In this document: positions 1-62,800 of the stretch, piece after piece
How the letters are laid out: the number at the start of each line of letters is the position of its first letter
Position numbering within the stretch: position 1 is the first letter of the stretch
Assembly: GCF_000717055.1 (NCBI RefSeq)
Contig: NZ_JNXI01000011.1
Coordinates: 62,001 to 126,000, forward strand
DNA length: 64,000 nucleotides
Source of the DNA: Streptomyces iakyrus
GTDB taxonomy: Bacteria > Actinomycetota > Actinomycetes > Streptomycetales > Streptomycetaceae
Direction: 5' to 3'
Notes under the pieces: model-generated
Seen by the model: the letters and a program-made list of their open reading frames with translations, nothing else
What the model was told of the DNA's origin: nothing
Databases searched by the model: none
Translations under genes and position numbers: made by a program

Positions 1-872
1 CGGGGCGGGTCGAGGCGATCTGGTTCGCCTTCACCGAGCATCCCTGGCTGAAGGTGTGGAGTCTCTCCCCCACCCGGCCGCTGACCTCGCGGAAGGTGAC
101 ACGGCCGTACAACTATCCGTTCTCCGACAACGTGCCCACGCCGGTGGCGGAGCTGGTCGGCCGGATGACGTCGGAGGCGGCCTGGTACCTCGCGCCGGTG
201 CTCGGCACCGCCCAGTACGAGGCCGCCGCCCTCGGGCTGGTGACGACGCTCTCCGCCGACCTCTGGGGGCCCTCGAAGAACACACTGCTGTACCTGAAGC
301 CGACCACACTCCAGGTGCACGCCAACGGCTACGCGGTCCTCACCGCGCGGGACGGGGTGCAGCGGGTCGTCTCCGAGTTCGCGGCGTTCTACCGCGAGCG
401 GCTGACGGCGTACGCCGCCCGGGGCAGCTTCCCGGTCAACGGCTCGGTGGAGATCCGGGTGACCGGCCTGGACGACCCGGCCGTCGCCGGCATGGCCGGG
501 GCCCGTCCGCCGCTGCTGTCGGCGCTCCGGCCGCCCGAGGACCACCCCGAGTGGGACACGGCCGTGTGGCTGGACGTCCTGACGCTGCCGGGCACGCCGG
601 ACGCGGAGGCGTTCCTGCGCGAGATCGAGCGGTTCCTGCTGCGTACGTTCGACGGCGGGTCCGCCCTCACCCGGGTGGAGTGGTCCAAGGGGTGGGCGTA
701 CACGGACGACGACGTGTGGAGCGACCCGGAGGTGCTGAGCGACGTCGTCCCGGCGGCGGTCGGCCAGGACGCGTGGGCGGAGGCGAACGCCGCACTGGAC
801 CGGCTCGATCCGCACGGCGTGTACGGCAACGCCTTCCTGGACCGGCTGTTCGGTCCCTCGGGGGTGAGGTAG
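1..872 (+). CDS. Cholesterol oxidase, covalent-FAD (VAO-type) class, 3' end only
   Basis: The reading frame is open from the window edge (first full codon at base 3), so the start and the FAD-binding half lie outside. The visible part reads IWFAFTEHPWLKVWSLSPTRP and PYNYPFSDNVPTPVAELVG, which I recognise from the substrate-binding domain of the Brevibacterium-type (class II) cholesterol oxidases. These enzymes oxidise cholesterol to cholest-4-en-3-one and are normally secreted. About 290 residues of a protein usually near 600 are present, ending at TAG 870-872. The catalytic Glu/Arg pair cannot be judged without the missing half. Another VAO-family oxidase is possible, but the substrate-domain match is good. 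Confidence 0.85.
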   Translation, partial: GRVEAIWFAFTEHPWLKVWSLSPTRPLTSRKVTRPYNYPFSDNVPTPVAELVGRMTSEAAWYLAPVLGTAQYEAAALGLVTTLSADLWGPSKNTLLYLKPTTLQVHANGYAVLTARDGVQRVVSEFAAFYRERLTAYAARGSFPVNGSVEIRVTGLDDPAVAGMAGARPPLLSALRPPEDHPEWDTAVWLDVLTLPGTPDAEAFLREIERFLLRTFDGGSALTRVEWSKGWAYTDDDVWSDPEVLSDVVPAAVGQDAWAEANAALDRLDPHGVYGNAFLDRLFGPSGVR

Positions 873-1181
873 CGCAGAGCAGCAGCACGAGCGGGCCTCC
901 GACCGGACCGCCGGATCGCGCCAGATTCGCGGCGTGACGCGCACCACGGGGCGGCGAGCCGCACCGGAAGAAACATCCGCCACAGCACTCCCGGCGGGCG
1001 GAACTTCCCCTTCCGCACCCGGCCACGGATGTCCCGTGGCAAGATCATCTTCGTTCAATCTTGCACGACATAAGGGGAATTGCCCGGATCACAGCCAACC
1101 GGCTCGCGGGGATTTCTCCTGGTAGCGGACCGGCCGGTAGGCATGCGGGGACATCAGCCGAACCCACCCCTGGAGGTCCGC
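873..1181. other. Intergenic region before the mel operon
   Basis: No gene seen. A 7-bp stem (GCCACGG 1022-1028, CCGTGGC 1034-1040, 5-nt loop) is a weak candidate terminator for the cholesterol oxidase gene. The tract 1050-1080 is locally AT-richer and probably carries the mel promoter, but no clear -35/-10 pair stands out. GGAGG at 1172-1176 is the melC1 ribosome binding site. Confidence 0.4.
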
Positions 1182-1550
1182 ATGCCGGAACTCAGCCGTC
1201 GCAGCGCGCTCACCGCCGCGGCCGTCCTCGCCACGAGCGCGGGCACGTTGTCCGCCGTCACCCCGGCCTCGGCCGCCGGGCACCACGGCTCCCCCGGAAG
1301 CTTCGACGAGGTCTACAAGGGCCGCCGGATACAGGGCCGTCCGGCCACCGGGTCAGGTCACCACGGGCACCACGGCGCGGGATACGCGGTGTTCGTCGAC
1401 GGGGTCGAGCTGCACGTGATGCGCAACGCCGACGGCAGCTGGATCAGCGTCGTCAGCCACTACGACCCGGTGGCCACCCCGCGGGCCGCCGCCCGCGCCG
1501 CGGTGGACGAGCTGCAGGGCGCGCCGCTGCTGCCCTTCCCTGCCAACTGA
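1182..1550 (+). CDS. melC1: Tyrosinase cofactor / copper chaperone MelC1
   Basis: Protein of 122 residues. The N-terminus has a twin-arginine type export signal ([11 protein letters not shown] followed by a hydrophobic stretch ending ASA). The mature part is rich in His ([10 protein letters not shown]) and ends PLLPF, as in known MelC1 proteins. MelC1 binds apo-tyrosinase, delivers copper to its active site and carries it through the Tat translocon, because the tyrosinase has no signal of its own. The start is fixed by GGAGG five bases upstream. melC2 follows 32 bases after the stop codon, so the two are one operon, as in other Streptomyces. Confidence 0.93.
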
Positions 1551-1582
1551 CCCGTCCCGCACAGCACCTGGAGCAACCGCAC

Positions 1583-2404
1583 ATGGCAGTCCGCAAGAAC
1601 CAGTCCACTCTGACCGCCGACGAGAAGCGGCGTTTCGTCGCCGCGCTGCTGGAGCTGAAGCGCAGCGGCCGCTACGACGAGTTCGTCACGACGCACAACG
1701 CCTTCATCGTCTCCGACACCGACAACGGCGAGCGGACCGGGCACCGTTCACCGTCCTTCCTGCCCTGGCACCGAAGATTCCTCCTGGAGTTCGAGCGGGC
1801 GCTGCAGTCGGTGGACGCGTCGGTGTCGCTGCCCTACTGGGACTGGACCGTCGACCGTACGCCGCGCGCCTCGCTGTGGGCGCCCGACTTCCTCGGGGGT
1901 ACCGGGCGGGAGCGGGACGGCCGGGTGACGGACGGGCCGTTCTCCGCGTCCGGCGGGAACTGGCCGGTCAACGTGCGGGTCGACGGCCGTACGTTCCTGC
2001 GGCGCTCCCTCGGGTCCGGTACGCGCGAGCTGCCGACCCGGGCCGAGGTCGAGTCGGTGCTGGCGATGTCCACGTACGACATGGCGCCCTGGAACAGCGG
2101 CTCGGACGGCTTCCGCAACCACCTCGAAGGGTGGCGGGGCGTGAACCTGCACAACCGCGTCCACGTCTGGGTCGGCGGGCAGATGGCGACCGGGGTCTCC
2201 CCCAACGACCCGGTGTTCTGGCTGCACCACGCGTACATAGACAAGCTGTGGGCCGAGTGGCAGCGCCGGCACCCCGGCTCCGGTTATCTGCCGGCCGCCG
2301 GCACGCCGAACGTGATCGACCTCAACGAGACGATGCGGCCGTGGCACGACATGAGCCCGGCGGATCTGCTGGACCACACGCCGCACTACACGTTCGACGC
2401 CTGA
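1583..2404 (+). CDS. melC2: Tyrosinase MelC2 (binuclear copper monophenol oxidase)
   Basis: Protein of 273 residues, the standard length for Streptomyces tyrosinase. It oxidises tyrosine and o-diphenols to quinones, giving melanin. CuA ligands are visible at H38 (TTHNAF), H54 (TGHRSPSF) and H63 (LPWHRRF); CuB ligands at H190 and H194 (NLHNRVHVWVGG) and H216 (FWLHHAYIDKLW). All six are present, so the enzyme should be active. There is no signal peptide: export relies on the partner MelC1. CTGGAG lies ten bases before the ATG. The stop codon directly abuts the stop codon of the convergent RNase H gene, with no space for a separate terminator. Confidence 0.96.
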   Translation: MAVRKNQSTLTADEKRRFVAALLELKRSGRYDEFVTTHNAFIVSDTDNGERTGHRSPSFLPWHRRFLLEFERALQSVDASVSLPYWDWTVDRTPRASLWAPDFLGGTGRERDGRVTDGPFSASGGNWPVNVRVDGRTFLRRSLGSGTRELPTRAEVESVLAMSTYDMAPWNSGSDGFRNHLEGWRGVNLHNRVHVWVGGQMATGVSPNDPVFWLHHAYIDKLWAEWQRRHPGSGYLPAAGTPNVIDLNETMRPWHDMSPADLLDHTPHYTFDA

Positions 2405-3103
2405 TCAGACGCTCGCGCCCGTGCGGCACTCCGGGTGGCCCCAGCCGCTGTCGTTCTTGGCGATGGGCTCACCGGCCGCGTAGGAGCGGCCGCACTGGCA
2501 GCGGCCGGGGAACTTCGCCTTGATCGTGCGCGCGGAACCCTTGCCCCCCGCGGCCTTGGCGGGGCGCGGGCGGGAACGCGGGGCCTTGGCAGGGGTATCC
2601 GGGGCGGGCGGCGGCTCGGGGGAGCCGAGGCCGCTGCCCGCGGGCTCCTGGACGGTGGCGGCCTGGCTGGCGGCCCGGTCGGCGAAGTCGTTGAGCCGGT
2701 CGCCGTCGACCTGGTGGGCGGGGACGTAGCGGAACTCGACCGAGCGGCCGTCCAGCAGTTCGTCGATGCGGACGACGAGGTCCTGGTTGGCGACCGGCTT
2801 GCCGGCGGAGGTCTTCCAGCCGTTGCGCTTCCAGCCGGGGAGCCAGGTGGTGACGGCCTTCATCGCGTACTGCGAGTCCATCCGGATCTCAAGCGGCACG
2901 TCCGGGTCGGTCGCCGCCAGCAGGCGCTCCAGCGCGGTGAGTTCGGCGACGTTGTTGGTGGCCTTGCCGAGCGGCCCCGCCGCCCACCGCTCCGGCGTCT
3001 CGGAAGCGTCGGCGACGACCCAGGCCCAGCCCGCGGGCCCGGGATTTCCCTTCGAAGCCCCGTCACACGCGGCCACAACACGTTCACGCATGCGCTCGAT
3101 CAT
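2405..3103 (-). CDS. RNase HI with C-terminal Cys-cluster tail
   Basis: Protein of about 232 residues. Residues 10-150 form an RNase HI fold with the acidic catalytic residues in ACDGASKGNPG, NNVAELTALE, RMDSQYAM and LNDFADRAA; it cleaves RNA in RNA-DNA hybrids. A Pro/Ala-rich linker follows, then a basic tail with the pattern CQCG, AGEPIAK, WGHPEC that resembles a small zinc-binding cluster. That tail is not part of ordinary RNase HI (about 150 residues). An alternative start is the second Met at 3091. No strong ribosome binding site precedes either. The gene converges on melC2 without any gap. Confidence 0.85.
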   Translation of the reverse strand: MIERMRERVVAACDGASKGNPGPAGWAWVVADASETPERWAAGPLGKATNNVAELTALERLLAATDPDVPLEIRMDSQYAMKAVTTWLPGWKRNGWKTSAGKPVANQDLVVRIDELLDGRSVEFRYVPAHQVDGDRLNDFADRAASQAATVQEPAGSGLGSPEPPPAPDTPAKAPRSRPRPAKAAGGKGSARTIKAKFPGRCQCGRSYAAGEPIAKNDSGWGHPECRTGASV

Positions 3104-3144
3104 GCCATGACCGCGGGGGCCGTCCGGCCGGGAGGGCCGGGCGC

Positions 3145-3939
3145 CTACGCCACGTCGGTCAGCTTCGGCATCTCTCCCTCGGTCTTCGTGATGTCGATCA
3201 CCGAGAAGTTCGCGCCCTGCGGGTCGCTGAGCGTCGCGAAGCGGCCGAACGGGGTGGTCATCGGGCCGAACCGCAGCACGCCGCCGAGCTCTGTGGCCTT
3301 CGCCACGGCCGCGTCGCAGTCCTCCACGGTGAAGTACACGTTGATGTACGGCTGCACCTCGGGCGGGAAGTCGTCGCCCATCTTCATGCGGCCCAGCACG
3401 GTGCGTTCGCCGAGGTCGTAGATCCGGAAGTCCATTTCGTCCTCCATGTCCCGCTGCCGGTAGGAGAAGACGGCGGGGAAGAACGCGTCGGACTTCGCGG
3501 GCTCGCGGGTGAAGACCTCCGCCCAGGTGTAGGCACCGGGTTCGGCCATCGCCTGGAAGCCCTCGTGGGTGCCCGCCTGCCAGACGCCGAAGACGACGCC
3601 GCCGGGGTCGCGGGCCAGGCACATGGTGCCGAAGTCGGCGACCTGCATGGGCTCCATCAGCACCTCGCCGCCATTGTCGCGGATCCGGCCGGCGGTGGCG
3701 GCGGCGTCGTCCGCGGCGAAGTACAGGCACCACTGCGACATGCCCTCCTGGCCCGGCATGGGCGGGACGACGGCGGCGACCGCCTTGCCGTTCGCGTAGG
3801 CCTCCGTGTAGTTGCCGAGCTCCGCGGACGCCTCGGCGAAGGTCCAGCCGAGGACGTCCCCGTAGAAGCTCTTGGCCCCTTCGAGGTCGCCGAACATCGC
3901 GTCGGCCCAGCAGGGGGTTCCTTCAGGTTGCACGGCCAT
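3145..3939 (-). CDS. Two-domain VOC (glyoxalase/bleomycin-resistance fold) protein
   Basis: Protein of 264 residues made of two tandem vicinal-oxygen-chelate domains (roughly 8-125 and 135-260). The first begins GTPCWADAMFGDLEGAKSFY and has DPGGVVFGVWQ; the second begins GAYTWAEVFTREPAKSDAFF and has DPQGANFSVID. This layout matches actinobacterial proteins annotated as hydroxylases or glyoxalase-family members. Substrate is unknown. GGAGAGGG lies upstream of the ATG at 3939. It stands alone between the RNase H gene and the divergent lipoprotein gene. Confidence 0.85.
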   Translation of the reverse strand: MAVQPEGTPCWADAMFGDLEGAKSFYGDVLGWTFAEASAELGNYTEAYANGKAVAAVVPPMPGQEGMSQWCLYFAADDAAATAGRIRDNGGEVLMEPMQVADFGTMCLARDPGGVVFGVWQAGTHEGFQAMAEPGAYTWAEVFTREPAKSDAFFPAVFSYRQRDMEDEMDFRIYDLGERTVLGRMKMGDDFPPEVQPYINVYFTVEDCDAAVAKATELGGVLRFGPMTTPFGRFATLSDPQGANFSVIDITKTEGEMPKLTDVA

Positions 3940-30186: not shown

Positions 30187-31077
30187 TCAGCAGTACAGGT
30201 TGCCTCCGGGTGACGTGCCGAGGATCTGCGTGAACCGCTGGTAGTTGTTCACGCGGCTCTGCACCTGCGCCGGGTTCTTTCCGTCGCACTCCAGGGAGCC
30301 GTTGATGCTGCGGATCGTCTGGCCGAACCCGGCGCCGTTCACCATGGCGTTGTGCGGTGTCATGGAACCGGGGCCGGTCTGGGTGTTCCAGTACCACAGG
30401 GCGGTCTTCCAGGCGACGGCCGAGTCGTTCTGCACCAGCCAGGGGTTGTTCAGCAGGTCGATGCCGAGCGCGTCGCCCGCGGCCTTGTAGTTGAAGTTCC
30501 AGCTCAGCTGGATCGGGCCGCGCCCGTAGTAGGCGGCCTGCCCGGCCGGACAGCCGTAGGGCCGCCCCCAGTCGCAGTAGTGCGGGTAGTTGGCGGTGTT
30601 CTGCTCCACCACGTGCACCAGACCGCCGGTCTCGTGGCTGACGTTGGCGAGGAAGGCGGCGGCCTCCTGCTTCTTCACCGTGTCGCTGCCGGTGTTGGCG
30701 AAGCCGGGGTAGGCACCGAGGGCAGCGGTGAGCCCGCTGTAGCTGTAGAACGAATTCCGGTTCGGGAACATCTGGTTGAACTGGGCCTCGCTCACCACGA
30801 AGCGCGCATTGGGCGTGCCGGGACCGCTGTCGCAGGCGTACGGCTCCCAGTACCAGGTGCTGATGACCGGGTCGTAGCCCGGGTTCGCGTGCTCGGCGAT
30901 GTACGCCTTGCCGTCGGTGTAGCGGACGATGTCACCGGCGTTGTACGACTTACCGGCTGTCCAGTTCGGGTAGCTGGAGCAGGCGGCGGCCGAGGCGTTC
31001 GAGGCGGGCAGGAGCACCGGCGCGGTGCCGGCGAGGGCGAGGGTGGCCAGGACTGCGGAGATACGGCGTCTCGACAC
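30187..31077 (-). CDS. Secreted chitinase, CBM5/12 plus GH19
   Basis: Protein of 296 residues from GTG 31077 (AAGGAG eight bases upstream). Signal peptide to about residue 31; a chitin-binding module (YPNWTAGKSYNAGDIVRYTDGKAYIAEHANPG...WYWEPY, residues 35-82); then a family-19 catalytic domain with E149 (VSHETGG) and E158 (VVEQN), the acid/base pair with the usual spacing. The layout is that of Streptomyces ChiC/ChiF. It hydrolyses chitin outside the cell. Three dre-like repeats lie 140-185 bases upstream, implying repression by DasR and induction by N-acetylglucosamine-derived signals. Confidence 0.93.
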   Translation of the reverse strand: MSRRRISAVLATLALAGTAPVLLPASNASAAACSSYPNWTAGKSYNAGDIVRYTDGKAYIAEHANPGYDPVISTWYWEPYACDSGPGTPNARFVVSEAQFNQMFPNRNSFYSYSGLTAALGAYPGFANTGSDTVKKQEAAAFLANVSHETGGLVHVVEQNTANYPHYCDWGRPYGCPAGQAAYYGRGPIQLSWNFNYKAAGDALGIDLLNNPWLVQNDSAVAWKTALWYWNTQTGPGSMTPHNAMVNGAGFGQTIRSINGSLECDGKNPAQVQSRVNNYQRFTQILGTSPGGNLYC

Positions 31078-31214
31078 GGGTTCAACTCCTTCGCGGAGCA
31101 CGGCCGCACCCTGACGAGGGCAGGGCGAAGCGGGCCCTCGACCGCACGCACCGGGGGTCCGGTCACGGCGTGGGGGCGGCCGTGGTGGGGGGCTGTGGAG
31201 CCACACTCAACCGC

Positions 31215-33541: not shown

Positions 33542-33889
33542 ATGGTTTCGCACGCATCCCCGGAACAGGTCGACATCGACGTCCGGGACGAACTCCTGGA
33601 ACCGGATGGAGAATCCGGCGGAGAGCAGCAGATCGTCGATTACACAACGTTCTTCTTCCCCGCGCACGGCGTCTTCGCAAGGCGGCTCATCTGCGGCCCC
33701 ACCCTCAAGTCGTACAGCCGTGCGGTCGTGTCGCTCTGCGAAGTGGACGGGAACAATGTCCCCTTCCGGGGGTTGGCCACGATGAGCGTCGCCAACGTCG
33801 TTCCCCACGACGATGGAATCCTGGAAATAGTGGGATCCATCCAGTGGAACTCCGACATCAAGATACGGGCAAGCGTGCTCTGGCAGTGA
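33542..33889 (+). CDS. Unrecognised 115-residue beta-rich protein, metalloprotease operon gene 1
   Basis: Protein of 115 residues; an upstream in-frame stop makes ATG 33542 the only ATG start. The first 30 residues are acidic and probably disordered (QVDIDVRDELLEPDGESGGEQQ). The rest alternates short hydrophobic strands (DYTTFFFPA, RAVVSLCEVDG, ATMSVANVVPHDDGILEIVGSIQWNSDIKIRASVLW) and should be a small beta sandwich. No signal peptide or membrane segment. I do not recognise the family. It lies 36 bases before a small gene and then a metzincin protease gene, all on one strand, and is probably co-transcribed with them. Confidence 0.65.
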   Translation: MVSHASPEQVDIDVRDELLEPDGESGGEQQIVDYTTFFFPAHGVFARRLICGPTLKSYSRAVVSLCEVDGNNVPFRGLATMSVANVVPHDDGILEIVGSIQWNSDIKIRASVLWQ

Positions 33890-33925
33890 CCGAGATGGGA
33901 GCACGGAACCTTCCGGAGAGAATCA

Positions 33926-34186
33926 GTGCCCGACGACAACGGCGCGAGTGAACAGCGGACACAGGAAAGCCGCATGCTGGACCGGCACCCCGGGCTGCGT
34001 GATTCCGTGGCGTCGCTGCCGGAATTCATCGCCTGGAATGACAGCTTCCCCCTCGTCGAAGTGGACGCGGAGTCGTTCCGGGTGGCCCGGGGTGACCAGC
34101 TCATGGATCGTGACCAGATGATGGTCGAGTGGATAAGGCTTTTCCGGCCGCAACTGTTCGAAGAAGGTGCGGAAAATGACAGATAG
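33926..34186 (+). CDS. 86-residue protein with protease-pro-segment-like motif, operon gene 2
   Basis: Starts at GTG 33926 with CCGGAGAG upstream. The central part reads VEVDAESFRVARGDQLMDRDQ and aligns without gaps to IVIDGQVFYRVEGDLLLDADE at the N-terminus of the metalloprotease encoded next (shared D, F, GD, L, D, D plus several conservative pairs). It could be a free-standing copy of the protease pro-segment, and so an inhibitor, chaperone or substrate; that is inference. It ends 11 bases inside the protease gene, indicating translational coupling. No homologue is known to me. Confidence 0.7.
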   Translation: MPDDNGASEQRTQESRMLDRHPGLRDSVASLPEFIAWNDSFPLVEVDAESFRVARGDQLMDRDQMMVEWIRLFRPQLFEEGAENDR

Positions 34187-35000
34187 CTCCGAGGTACGGC
34201 GGCCCGAGATCGTGATCGACGGCCAGGTGTTCTACCGGGTAGAGGGTGACCTGCTGCTCGACGCCGACGAACTCGATGTCTACATCGAGGCGCAGAAGGC
34301 ACTGCGGGCACAGCGCGAGGCCGCCCGGCAGCTGGCACGGACAGGGGTGGGCACCATCGGCAGCGGTATCAGTCCGCTCGGGCAGCCGAGCAGCGGTCTG
34401 CTCGGCATCATGCAGGACGGCAGGATCGTCCGCTGGGAACCGGGCACGGTCCTGAAGTACTGCGTCCTGCGCAAGACCTTCCCGGAGCGGGAGTGGTACG
34501 AGTCGGTCGTCGAGAACATGCGACGCGCCACCGACGACTGGTCGGCGACCTGCGGCGTGCAGTTCGAGCACGTCGAAACCGCCGACGACAGTGATGCGCT
34601 GCGGCCGCCCGAAGTCGTCTTCCCGGTGCGGCACCTCGACTCCGGGGGCCAGTTCATCGCCGCGGCGTTCTTTCCCAACGACCCGGAGAACCGCAGGCGC
34701 GTTTTCATCGACCCGTCGTACCAGACCACCAGTTTCGACCGCGTAGGCGTACTACGGCATGAGTTGGGCCATGCCATCGGCTTCCGGCACGAACACATCC
34801 GCTCGGGCGCGCCCGCCGTATGCCCCGACGAATCCACCGAGGGAACGGTGGACCTGACGCAGTACGACCCGCAATCCGTCATGCACTACTTCTGCGGTGG
34901 GCTGGGATCGCGGGAACTCGCCATCTCCGAAATCGACCGGGTGGGTGCCCAGAAGGTCTACGGGCCTCCGCTGACCGGTTTCAACCTCCTCGCCGCCTGA
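34176..35000 (+). CDS. Metzincin-type zinc metalloprotease without export signal, operon gene 3
   Basis: Protein of 274 residues from ATG 34176 (GAAGG eight bases upstream). Residues 10-50 carry a pro-segment-like motif (IDGQVFYRVEGDLLLDADELDVY). The catalytic domain has the full metzincin zinc site HELGHAIGFRHEH and the Met-turn SVMHYFCGG, as in matrixin/astacin-like peptidases (M10/M12/M57 groups). A Cys is present in YCVLRKTF before the catalytic core and could act as a switch. There is no signal peptide, so the enzyme is either cytoplasmic or exported by another route. Its targets are unknown; the two upstream genes are likely partners. Confidence 0.85.
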   Translation: MTDSSEVRRPEIVIDGQVFYRVEGDLLLDADELDVYIEAQKALRAQREAARQLARTGVGTIGSGISPLGQPSSGLLGIMQDGRIVRWEPGTVLKYCVLRKTFPEREWYESVVENMRRATDDWSATCGVQFEHVETADDSDALRPPEVVFPVRHLDSGGQFIAAAFFPNDPENRRRVFIDPSYQTTSFDRVGVLRHELGHAIGFRHEHIRSGAPAVCPDESTEGTVDLTQYDPQSVMHYFCGGLGSRELAISEIDRVGAQKVYGPPLTGFNLLAA

Positions 35001-35007
35001 CGGACTT

Positions 35008-35035
35008 GCCCGCGGCGCCACATGGCGCCGCGGGC
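35008..35035. terminator. 12-bp perfect stem-loop after the metalloprotease operon
   Basis: GCCCGCGGCGCC (35008-35019) and GGCGCCGCGGGC (35024-35035) are exact reverse complements with a 4-base ACAT loop, eight bases after the protease stop and before the convergent deacetylase gene. Very stable, symmetric, and probably bidirectional. Confidence 0.8.
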
Positions 35036-49765: not shown

Positions 49766-51259
49766 TCAGGCCTGCGCGCGGTTGCCGCCCCTGCCCTTCG
49801 TCTTCGGCAGGGCCAGCTTGATCTCCTCCCGCAGCTCCTGGATCCTCGGGTAGCCCGAGTACTCGGCGGTGAGCCGGTACATCTGGCGCAGCCGGTCCCA
49901 GGTCCGGTGGGAGGAGTTGGAGCCCATCGACACCAGGGCCAGTCGCGCGTACCGGTCCGCCTGTTCGGGGTCGTCCGCGATGAAGCAGGCCGACGCCATC
50001 GACAGGTAGTCGAAGATCTTCGACCGCTGCCGGCCGTCCACCCGCAGGGCCAGGGCCTTCTCCGCGTAGTGCTGCGCATGGGCGGCGGCCCCCGGCTCGA
50101 ACTCGGCCAGCGTGCGATAGGCCAGGGCCTGCATGCCGTAGAGGTCCTCCTCCTTGAAGGTCTGCATCCAGTCCGGCGGCGGTACGTCGGCCTTGTCGGA
50201 GACGAACAGGTCCTCGGCCCGCCCGAGCGTGCGGCGCATCGCCTGGCCCTTGCCCATGGAGGCTTGCGCCCAGGCCTCGATGGTGTACAGCATCGCCCGG
50301 GTGCGCGGCAGCACCTCGTCACCGGAGCCGGACGTGGCGAGCTTCATCAGGTCCAGGGCGTCGTCCGGCCGGCCCAGGTGCACCATCTGGCGGGCCGCGC
50401 GGGACAGGGCCTCGCCCGCTCGGGGGCGGTCCCCGCCCTCTCTGGCCGCGTGCGCGGCGATGACGAAGTACTTCTGGGCCGTGGGCTCCAGACCGACGTC
50501 GTGCGACATCCAGCCCGCGAGGACGGCGAGGTTGGCGGCGACGCCCCACAGGCGCCGCTGGAGGTGGGGTGGGTGACGGTAGGCGAGCATGCCGCCCACC
50601 TCGTTGAGCTGGCCCACCACGGCCTTGCGCTGGAGCCCGCCGCCGCGGGCCGCGTCCCAGGCGCGGAAAACCTCGACCGAGCGCTCCAGTTCCTCGATCT
50701 CCTGCGACCCGATGGGGGCCGCCTCGTAGCGGTCGAACCCAGCGGGGTCGGCGTGGAGGGGGTGGTCGAGGTCGGGGGCGTCGGCAGCCAGGGAAGGGTC
50801 GGTGTGCAGCCAGTCGTACATGGCGCTGCTGAGTGCGGAGCCCGCGGCGAGCGCGGCGCCCGCGCCCACCAAGCCGCGTCGGTTGAGCATGAGGTCCATT
50901 CCCGTGAATTCGGTGAGGACCGCAGCCGTCCGCTCGGGCGCCCACGGCACGCCGTCGGGAGCTTCGGCGCTCCCGCCGCCCTGCCGTTTCCCCGCACGCC
51001 CGTGCCGGACCAGACCGAGGTCCTCGATGGTCACGACACGGCCGAGACGCTCGGTGAACAGAGCCGCCAGCACCCGCGGCACCGGATCGCGCGGGATCTC
51101 TCCCGTGTCGATCCACCGCCGCACCCGGGAGGTGTCGGTCGACAGCTGGGGGTGGCCCATGGCCGCCGCCTGCCGGTTGACCAGCCTCGCGAGTTCGCCT
51201 TTGGACCAGCCGGCCAGGCCGAACAGGTCCGCGAGCCGGGTGTTGGGTTGTCCGCTCAC
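49766..51259 (-). CDS. nsdA: NsdA-type regulator (TPR-containing, negative regulator of differentiation)
   Basis: Protein of 497 residues from GTG 51259. It begins GQPNTRLADLFGLAGWSKGELARLVNRQAAAMGHPQLSTDTSRVRRWIDTGEIPRDPVPRVLAALFTERLGR, a helix-turn-helix-like region, followed by a long alpha-helical, TPR-like part (AQKYFVIAAHAAREGGDRPRAGEALSRAARQMVHLG and so on). It matches my memory of S. coelicolor NsdA, whose loss increases antibiotic production and sporulation. How NsdA acts is not settled. It is flanked by two TTA-containing genes, a phosphatase (convergent) and a phosphotransferase-like gene (divergent). Confidence 0.82.
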   Translation of the reverse strand: MSGQPNTRLADLFGLAGWSKGELARLVNRQAAAMGHPQLSTDTSRVRRWIDTGEIPRDPVPRVLAALFTERLGRVVTIEDLGLVRHGRAGKRQGGGSAEAPDGVPWAPERTAAVLTEFTGMDLMLNRRGLVGAGAALAAGSALSSAMYDWLHTDPSLAADAPDLDHPLHADPAGFDRYEAAPIGSQEIEELERSVEVFRAWDAARGGGLQRKAVVGQLNEVGGMLAYRHPPHLQRRLWGVAANLAVLAGWMSHDVGLEPTAQKYFVIAAHAAREGGDRPRAGEALSRAARQMVHLGRPDDALDLMKLATSGSGDEVLPRTRAMLYTIEAWAQASMGKGQAMRRTLGRAEDLFVSDKADVPPPDWMQTFKEEDLYGMQALAYRTLAEFEPGAAAHAQHYAEKALALRVDGRQRSKIFDYLSMASACFIADDPEQADRYARLALVSMGSNSSHRTWDRLRQMYRLTAEYSGYPRIQELREEIKLALPKTKGRGGNRAQA

Positions 51260-60835: not shown

Positions 60836-62800
60836 GTGTCGCCTTTCACTCGCTCCCGTCAGCTCTCGGACCCGACCGAGGGCGGAGCGGAACCGGATGA
60901 CGACACGGCGGCAGAGGATCCGGCCGGGGAACGGGCCGAGGCGGAGAGGCCGGACGCGGAACCGGACACGGGTGCGGAGACGGAACCGGACACAGCTGAG
61001 GAGGCGGCGCCGGGCACCGCCCCGAAGGACGAACCGGACACGGCGGTGGAGACCTCACCGGGCACGGCTGTGGACGCCGGCCAGGACACGGCCCCTGACC
61101 CGGACCCGGCTCCCGGCCCGGGTTCCGACGGGCCCCCCGGTGCGCCGAAGCCCGGCTGGTTCGGCTGGCGGCGCCGCTATCCCCGGGTGGCACGCGGCGT
61201 CAGCGTGGGAACCACCGTGCTGGCGGGTGCCCTCGTGCTGTTCGCGCTGCTCGTGCCCAATCAGGTCGACAAGATCGAGTTCGCCTCGTTCGTCAGGATC
61301 CCCGCCGAGGGCGTGCTGCTCGCGGGCCTGCTGCTCGCCCTGCCGCCGAAGGCCCGCCGGATCGCCGCCGTGGTCATGGGCGCGTTCCTCGGCCTGGTCA
61401 CGATCCTGAAGTTCGTGGACATGGGCTTCTACCAGATCCTGGCCCGCCCCTTCGACCTGGTGCTGGACTGGATCCTGATCGAGAACGGCACGGACTTCCT
61501 GAGGGAGACGTTCGGCCGTACCGGCCAGGTGCTGGCCGTGACCGGCGTGATCGTGCTGTTCGTCGCGGTGCTGGTCCTCACGACCCTCTCCGTGGTGCGG
61601 CTGACCCGTCTGATGGTCCGGCACCGGCCCGTCGCCGCCCGTGCGACGCTGATCCTCGGCACGGCGTGGATGACCTGCATGACCCTGGGCCTCCAGATCG
61701 GCACGGTGCCGATCGCCACCAAGGGCAACGCTGAGTTCCTGGGCAACCGGGTGGAGCAGGTCCGGGCGGGCCTGAAGGACGCACGGGTCTTCGAGAAGCA
61801 GGCCGCCGTCGACGCCTTCGCGAAGACGCCGCCCGACCAGCTGCTCACGGGACTGCGCGGTAAGGACGTCCTGTTCACCTTCATCGAGAGCTACGGCCGG
61901 GTCGCGATCGACGACCCGGCGATGGCGCAGCAGACCGACACGGTCCTCAAGGAGGGCACCGGCCGGCTGAAGGCGGCCGGGTTCGCGTCGCGCAGCGGCT
62001 GGTTGCAGTCGCCGGTGACGGGCGCGGGCAGCTGGCTCGCCCACTCGACCTTCCTGTCCGGCCTGTGGATCAAGAACCAGCAGCGGTACCGCAACCTGAC
62101 CACGAGCGATCGCATGACGCTGACGAAGTACTTCGGGAAGACAGGCGCCTGGCGGACCGTCGGCATCGTGCCGGGGGTGCGGCGGGCCTGGCCGGAGGGG
62201 AAGTACTTCGGCCTGGACCACATCTACGACTCCGAGCACCTCGGCTACCACGGCCCGTACTTCAGCTGGACGCCCGTGCCCGACCAGTTCAGCATGGAGG
62301 CCTTCCAGCGGCTGGAGCACGGCAAGAAGGACCGCGAGCCGATCATGGCGGAGATCATCCTGGCGTCGAGCCACAACCCCTGGTCCCCCATCGCGCGGAT
62401 GATCGACTGGGACGACCTCGGCGACGGCTCGGTGTTCCACCGGATCAAGAAGGAGGGCACCAACCCCACGGAGGTCTGGAAGGACCCGGAGAGGGTGCGC
62501 ACCGAGTACCGGCGGGCCATCGAGTACTCGATCCGGAGCCTGACCGAGTGGGTCGAGCGCTACGGCGACGAGGACACGGTGCTGGTCTTCCTCGGCGACC
62601 ACCAGCCGGTACCGACCGTCACCGCCGGGGACACCGGCAAGGACGTGCCGGTCACCATCGTCGCCAAGGACAAGAAGGTCCTGGACCGGGTCGCCGACTG
62701 GAACTGGACGGACGGCCTCAAGCCGGCCGCGAACGCCCCCCGGTGGGGCATGGACAAGTTCCGCGACCGCTTCATGACGGCGTACGGTCCGCAGGGCTGA
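60836..62800 (+). CDS. Membrane sulfatase-family protein (LTA-synthase/phosphoglycerol-transferase like)
   Basis: Protein of 654 residues from GTG 60836 (GGAAGG eight bases upstream). Residues 10-105 are acidic and repetitive (EPDTAVETSPGTA-like); four to five membrane helices follow (SVGTTVLAGALVLFALLV, GVLLAGLLLALP, VVMGAFLGLVTILKFV, LAVTGVIVLFVAVLVL, ATLILGTAWMTCMTLGL), then an extracellular alkaline-phosphatase-like domain (KDVLFTFIESYGRVAI with the Tyr/Ser metal site, ILASSHNPWSPIA, VFLGDHQPVPTV). Such enzymes move glycerol-phosphate or phospho-groups onto envelope polymers. The exact activity is open. Its end overlaps the convergent hydrolase gene by 29 bases. Confidence 0.86.
   Translation: MSPFTRSRQLSDPTEGGAEPDDDTAAEDPAGERAEAERPDAEPDTGAETEPDTAEEAAPGTAPKDEPDTAVETSPGTAVDAGQDTAPDPDPAPGPGSDGPPGAPKPGWFGWRRRYPRVARGVSVGTTVLAGALVLFALLVPNQVDKIEFASFVRIPAEGVLLAGLLLALPPKARRIAAVVMGAFLGLVTILKFVDMGFYQILARPFDLVLDWILIENGTDFLRETFGRTGQVLAVTGVIVLFVAVLVLTTLSVVRLTRLMVRHRPVAARATLILGTAWMTCMTLGLQIGTVPIATKGNAEFLGNRVEQVRAGLKDARVFEKQAAVDAFAKTPPDQLLTGLRGKDVLFTFIESYGRVAIDDPAMAQQTDTVLKEGTGRLKAAGFASRSGWLQSPVTGAGSWLAHSTFLSGLWIKNQQRYRNLTTSDRMTLTKYFGKTGAWRTVGIVPGVRRAWPEGKYFGLDHIYDSEHLGYHGPYFSWTPVPDQFSMEAFQRLEHGKKDREPIMAEIILASSHNPWSPIARMIDWDDLGDGSVFHRIKKEGTNPTEVWKDPERVRTEYRRAIEYSIRSLTEWVERYGDEDTVLVFLGDHQPVPTVTAGDTGKDVPVTIVAKDKKVLDRVADWNWTDGLKPAANAPRWGMDKFRDRFMTAYGPQG

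Follow-up and report, generated by a model that had tools for sequence, protein, structure and literature searches.

A metzincin-like protease gene of Streptomyces iakyrus adjoined by a small gene related to the protease's own N-terminal segment

We analyzed a stretch of 64,000 nucleotides from Streptomyces iakyrus (contig NZ_JNXI01000011.1, forward-strand positions 62,001 to 126,000), called the window throughout, and describe here a trio of co-directional genes within it, the third of which encodes a metzincin protease. A preliminary description of this locus had given the three genes as 115, 86 and 274 residues long, with the last two overlapping by 11 bases (34176-34186), and these coordinates were confirmed. 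Each gene has conserved homologues, so that none is likely to be a chance open reading frame (ORF). The genes and the features on which the argument turns are the following.

33542..33889, plus strand: gene 1, 115 aa, ATG start
33926..34186, plus strand: gene 2, 86 aa, GTG start, with GGAGAG 5' of the start
34094..34096, plus strand: codon of gene 2 Asp57, counterpart of protease Asp25
34176..35000, plus strand: gene 3, 274 aa, ATG start
34200..34340, plus strand: N-terminal prosegment-like domain of gene 3, residues 9-55 (strands 11-28, helix 30-55), drawn from alignments and the secondary structure of the model
34242..34250, plus strand: Glu23-Gly24-Asp25 of gene 3, candidate aspartate switch, from conservation of the Asp and the alignment with 4r3v
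34758..34793, plus strand: zinc-binding motif HELGHAIGFRHE, gene 3 residues 195-206
34875..34889, plus strand: Met-turn SVMHY, gene 3 residues 234-238

Gene 3 carries the complete metzincin signature and Met-turn that had been ascribed to it. Across 86 aligned sequences the motif-defining positions of both vary little or not at all, with H195, E196, H199, G202, H205 and E206 invariant. The zinc motif, HELGHAIGFRHE, has the form HEXXHXXGXXHE with the family-specific Glu of the astacins (M12A), and SVMHY differs from the astacin Met-turn SIMHY by a conservative change. The motif XXRXDRD, described for astacins (PMC9848320), was not found after the family-specific Glu, where gene 3 reads HIRSGAP, with the Arg present and XDRD absent. 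Gene 3 also has features of a matrixin (M10), with a Pfam M10 score above the cut-off and a fold like that of matrix metalloproteinases (MMPs). We place it in a family of bacterial metzincins that is astacin-like yet not astacin proper. The homologue search returned 1,056 matches, of which the best 120 underlie the counts of motifs and N-termini given here; a strict pattern for the zinc motif was found in 113 of these 120, and among the seven that missed it P0087 lacks the motif and P0020 reads DEGD.

The protease appears from its sequence to be a cytoplasmic enzyme without a signal peptide, as first proposed. Alternative ATG, GTG or TTG starts permit at most three further residues upstream (GTG at 34167). 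Signal peptides were sought as an 11-residue hydropathy peak of at least 1.9 in the first 60 residues, a simpler measure than a dedicated predictor. By this measure, none of the 120 best homologues, the window's own cluster included, has the secretion signal of an astacin (highest peak, 1.73), and all four exported-looking relatives used as controls peaked at 2.03-2.73. This holds for those 120 homologues and not for a distant branch of relatives, which looks exported (including L022, L023, L029, L030 and L031).

Within the N-terminal segment of gene 3, Asp25 is the sole invariant residue (86 of 86 aligned close proteases). In a broader alignment of family members from several phyla the same position holds Asp in 57 of 58, with His in L053; this alignment and the tree discussed below exclude the repeat loci L002, L003, L095 and L099 and the cut proteins L033 and L078, and the alignment additionally excludes the repeats L101 and up. 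The usual context of the residue in the family is V-[E/N/D]-G-D. The alignment of the AlphaFold model of gene 3 with the structure of karilysin including its propeptide (4r3v) starts at model residue 23 and chain residue 25, and we take the switch residue of karilysin to be its Asp25. The other 49 of the 50 rows in this structural comparison begin at residue 74-77, and among the 50 rows listed there is no recognised zymogen besides 4r3v. The latency of karilysin is described as an aspartate switch (PMC8259862, PMC9629494), and the astacin propeptide motif F-E/Q-G-D-I, which the V-[E/N/D]-G-D context resembles, is reported to provide the Asp ligand of the zymogen's zinc (PMC9629494, PMC9848320). 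Judged from the model, the EGD loop of gene 3 probably lies near the catalytic zinc, and we infer that the protease would be held latent by an aspartate switch.

The preliminary description recognised no family for gene 2, and here it missed a relationship: by profile comparison, gene 2 is homologous to the N-terminal segment of the gene 3 protease family, of which it would be a detached copy. In hhalign the gene 2 profile matched protease residues 8-52 with a probability of 96.7% (E 3.9e-10), compared with 0.1-0.3% for seven other protease segments. A hidden Markov model (HMM) of five stand-alone copies of gene 2 (window, L016, L017, L018 and L097), run on the 9,082 ORFs of the fetched loci, recovered at E <= 0.01 the gene 2 copies, a further copy in L100 and seven metzincins at their N-terminal domain, with no other matches. 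The reverse HMM, made from protease residues 8-52, found at the same threshold among non-protease ORFs only the gene 2 copies of L016/L099, L017, L097 and the window, and scored those of L018 and L100 at E 0.087 and E 0.81.

Gene 2 has 28 homologous clusters. In an alignment of 27 of them (P0125, the window's own, omitted) together with the sequences from the window, L016 and L100, Asp57 is kept in 29 of 30 copies, and the exception, P0152 (55 aa), lacks the region. As a separate gene homologous to a prosegment, gene 2 is built as stand-alone propeptide-like inhibitors are. In Sorangium (L019), a single catalytic domain is preceded by two prosegment modules in tandem. Nine rows labelled gene 2 fall on one side of a branch with support 82, the label being less direct for P0011 and P0120 than for the other seven; because the tree was a quick one with long branches, we do not claim a single gain of gene 2. 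A resemblance of the Gly-Asp motif to LysM was dropped, as neither gene 2 nor gene 3 has a Pfam LysM match at E <= 1.

Twenty protease loci were examined for linkage (L016-L032, L097, L100 and the window). Gene 2 adjoins the protease in six of them, co-directionally in the window, L016, L017 and L097 and divergently in L018 and L100, and is fused to it in one (L019). Four of these adjoining pairs, in L016, L017, L018 and L100, lie outside the genus, and the pairing is also seen in adjacent locus tags (C3486_03520/03525 and SAMN06893096_102518/102519). Across 392 sampled genomes of the same genus, the two that hold an intact protease, G000 and G524, are also the two with gene 2. A further weak match to gene 2, in G489, lies inside an 882-aa subtilisin-like ORF and was judged to be due to chance.

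The reading that we favor, and consider somewhat better than an even bet, is that gene 3 encodes a metzincin that stays in the cell and is kept latent by an aspartate switch, and that gene 2 is a free prosegment serving it in trans as inhibitor or chaperone. As karilysin and the animal astacins do with theirs, gene 3 would use its N-terminal segment to set Asp25 of the EGD motif over the catalytic zinc. Gene 2, as the same module in the form of a free protein, would most likely bind the gene 3 protease and fill the cleft once the protease's own prosegment has been cleaved or has moved aside, and would thereby set a threshold for intracellular proteolysis or aid folding. Inhibition or chaperoning in trans is put forward by analogy. 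More tentatively, at rather less than an even chance, gene 2 may found a new class of protease inhibitor, in which a free aspartate-switch prosegment governs an intracellular bacterial metzincin in trans as a threshold switch, with gene 1 supplying a sensor subunit that is optional.

Several observations weigh against this reading. The residue before Gly-Asp in gene 2 is Arg, Gly, Trp, Lys or Thr, compared with Glu, Asn or Asp in the proteases, and with no acidic residue there the geometry of the loop may differ. The comparison of window gene 2 with gene 3 alone is not significant (BLASTP E 9.1), and the gene 2 HMM scores the window protease at only E 0.34; because this pair by itself is not significantly similar, the relationship of gene 2 to the prosegment depends on the family profiles. 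Gene 2 was also undetected in 13 of the 20 protease loci (L020-L032), the five exported-looking ones named above among them, and is thus not essential for the protease family.

The protease had initially been credited with two dedicated partners. This was upheld for gene 2, with its occurrence in the same two of 392 genomes and in four loci outside the genus, and not for gene 1, no copy of which was detected at L097 (G524), L016, L017 or L018; failure to accompany the protease elsewhere, which had been named as telling against the proposal, thus applies to gene 1 alone. Divergent relatives of gene 1 sit elsewhere in other genomes, and in NBC_00289 genes 1 and 2 have neighboring tags (OG985_04735/04730). 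From its sequence distribution, gene 1 is an optional accessory in a subset of Streptomyces operons rather than a dedicated partner. It is predicted to form a six-stranded beta-sandwich and is perhaps a binding subunit. We set aside the idea that gene 1 is a potempin-like dedicated inhibitor, as no sequence or fold match supported it, and H-type lectin is a tentative candidate label for its product. The window's genome holds a second copy of gene 1, 34% identical, near a contig end (L014; G000 contig C22, 331-615).

The composition of the trio is atypical for the window. The 22 called window ORFs of at least 150 aa, a set that possibly includes gene 3, average 0.707 (sd 0.019) in G+C content (GC) and 0.929 (sd 0.031) in GC at third codon positions (GC3). 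Genes 1, 2 and 3 have a GC of 0.606, 0.617 and 0.663 and a GC3 of 0.793, 0.759 and 0.851. Among the 392 same-genus genomes the protease is intact in two and a relic in two others. The relics (L096 and L098) carry in-frame stops, two in G107 and one in G493, and each lies within ~1 kb of a gene resembling the convergent neighbor 3' of the trio, which we take to be deacetylase-like. The relic in G493 keeps the gene order of the window, flanked on one side by the chitinase-like ORF and on the other by the deacetylase-like gene. That in G107 lies ~1 kb from the deacetylase-like gene on its other side, in an order unlike that of the window. The window's deacetylase-like gene was found at E <= 1e-80 in 27 of 61 searched genomes, its own included. 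In the remaining 26, the flanks fetched around this gene (at most 1.5 kb, some shorter) yielded no part of the trio. These 26 genomes do not show an empty site, as the window's next neighbor was also not found there. Because its rarity, atypical composition and relics fit such a history, we infer that the trio was acquired and lost.

The defence, toxin-like or developmental role suggested at first is conjectural. A sporadic distribution (two intact copies and two relics), an atypical composition and a small upstream gene overlapping that of the protease would also suit a toxin-antitoxin or abortive-infection module, in which the protease would be set loose once the unstable free gene 2 protein is gone. 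We regard this as distinctly improbable. Genes 1-3 matched no PADLOC family at E <= 1, undescribed defence systems lying beyond the reach of that scan; none of 50,697 phage records matched, and 7 of 72,556 plasmid records did so partly, none over more than 80% of the query. Gene 2 is undetected in most of the loci examined, as noted above, and the protease seems to own a built-in latch. This explanation overlaps with the one that we favor, and the likelihoods that we attach to the several readings are therefore not additive to one.

Other members of the protease family have different neighbors. Of 17 fetched loci, 6 have a peptidase-like protein of roughly 390-600 aa with an HEVGH or similar motif adjoining the metzincin or close to it; the window has none.

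L024, 2793-4160: HEVGH-type protein, directly upstream of the metzincin
L025, 6733-7905: HEVGH-type protein, directly upstream of the metzincin
L027, 5999-7771: HEVGH-type protein, directly upstream of the metzincin
L028, 6480-7892: HEVGH-type protein, directly upstream of the metzincin
L032, 3883-5673: HEVGH-type protein, downstream of the metzincin
L019, 679-2055: HEVGH-type protein, ~3 kb upstream of the metzincin

The HEVGH-type protein is itself preceded by a large protein (873-1731 aa) in L024, L025 and L028. PADLOC scans of nine neighbors of other family members gave a single match, of the L024 HEVGH protein to peptidase_U41 (E 1.3e-9); four other HEVGH proteins scanned gave none. In L033, from a Verrucomicrobia metagenome-assembled genome, a TIR-WD40 protein (578-3361) comes after a cut metzincin (2-337) that shares 75% identity with gene 3 across residues 161-272. 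Our searches of the literature on conflict systems and U41 found nothing on this metzincin family. The variety of neighbors suggests an exchange of regulatory partners within the family, which we offer as a lead rather than a result.

Such different partners (HEVGH proteins, large upstream proteins, the TIR-WD40 protein of L033), as well as the loss of the acidic residue before Gly-Asp in gene 2, would fit a different view of the segment, as a homotypic interaction or assembly module that docks the protease to gene 2 copies, gene 1 or a triggering partner in the manner of conflict-system adaptor domains. We consider this unlikely. Conservation has its center at the Gly-Asp, which is expected to be placed at the zinc, a propeptide that confers latency aligns with the segment and, gene 2 apart, no non-protease ORF in the fetched loci has the domain at E <= 0.01. 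It would be more surprising still if the protease were an effector delivered to other cells without a signal peptide, with gene 2, alone or with gene 1, as its chaperone or immunity protein. Many homologues do have long N-terminal extensions (e.g., P0012 and P0044), and a small inhibitor gene directly 5' of the protease gene has been reported for the Tannerella KLIKK proteases, in a paper citing then unpublished work (PMC7296668). However, no secretion-system gene was recognised in the neighborhoods called (selected proteins were profile-searched), there is no secretion signal, and an immunity gene of the prosegment type would be unusual.

The trio had further been described as bounded by an AT-richer promoter tract and a perfect 12-bp terminator. 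The first is borne out in composition, with a GC of 0.573 in the 150 bp upstream of gene 1 against 0.718 for the window; the promoter scan found no sigma-70-type promoter upstream of the trio. As for the second, the repeat directly 3' of gene 3, facing the convergent deacetylase-like gene, is perfect and its stretch folds strongly (z = -3.5), but no T-run follows it and it is not among the entries of the canonical-terminator scan. These and other features of the window are listed here; the label of the first ORF is presumptive.

30187-31206, minus strand: chitinase-like ORF, upstream of the trio, with a similar ORF in G493 (L098)
35008-35019 / 35024-35035, no strand: perfect 12-bp inverted repeat, loop ACAT, between convergent genes
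50517-50605: tRNA-Val (CAC) gene, the sole tRNA found in the window

Detached propeptide inhibitors are already known for subtilases and papain-like proteases. In Plasmodium, SUB1-ProM is described as a stand-alone propeptide-like protein encoded beside subtilase genes and a potent inhibitor of SUB1 (PMC6993865). Gene 2 resembles it in that both products are free proteins similar to a propeptide and both genes adjoin those of proteases. Unlike SUB1-ProM, which acts on a serine protease of a eukaryote in the parasitophorous vacuole, gene 2 is paired with a zinc metzincin in a bacterium, probably in the cytosol, and its inhibitory action is putative. The I29 propeptide-like inhibitors have an unrelated fold and are not known to lie in an operon with their target protease. 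They are of the same detached-prodomain kind as gene 2, with cysteine proteases as their targets, and CTLA-2alpha, crammer and BCPI are described as inhibiting in trans (PMC4089206). Among the papers listed in our searches of the open-access literature, titles and opening lines of abstracts showed no detached propeptide inhibitor for a metzincin.

Among metzincins, karilysin, an MMP of Tannerella, shares the catalytic fold of gene 3 but is secreted and has its propeptide in cis; the potempins paired with its protease group are lipoproteins and are not described there as copies of a prosegment (PMC7296668). The astacins (proastacin, promeprin and Limulus astacin) share the HEXXHXXGXXHE motif and the Met-turn, and their F-E/Q-G-D-I resembles the VEGDL found here (PMC9629494, PMC9848320), whereas they are secreted and their XXRXDRD is only partly present in gene 3. 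Myroilysin, a bacterial astacin (5zjk), differs in having a cysteine switch, and is described as lacking a motif of the FEGDI type (PMC9629494). It is on myroilysin that a suggested difference in latency between animal astacins and their bacterial relatives rests (PMC9629494), and the gene 3 family, as a set of bacterial metzincins with a Gly-Asp motif, bears on that suggestion. If the reading favored here is true, the pairing of genes 2 and 3 would represent a compact and testable case of how a cell keeps a cytosolic zinc protease safe, with an aspartate switch acting in trans.
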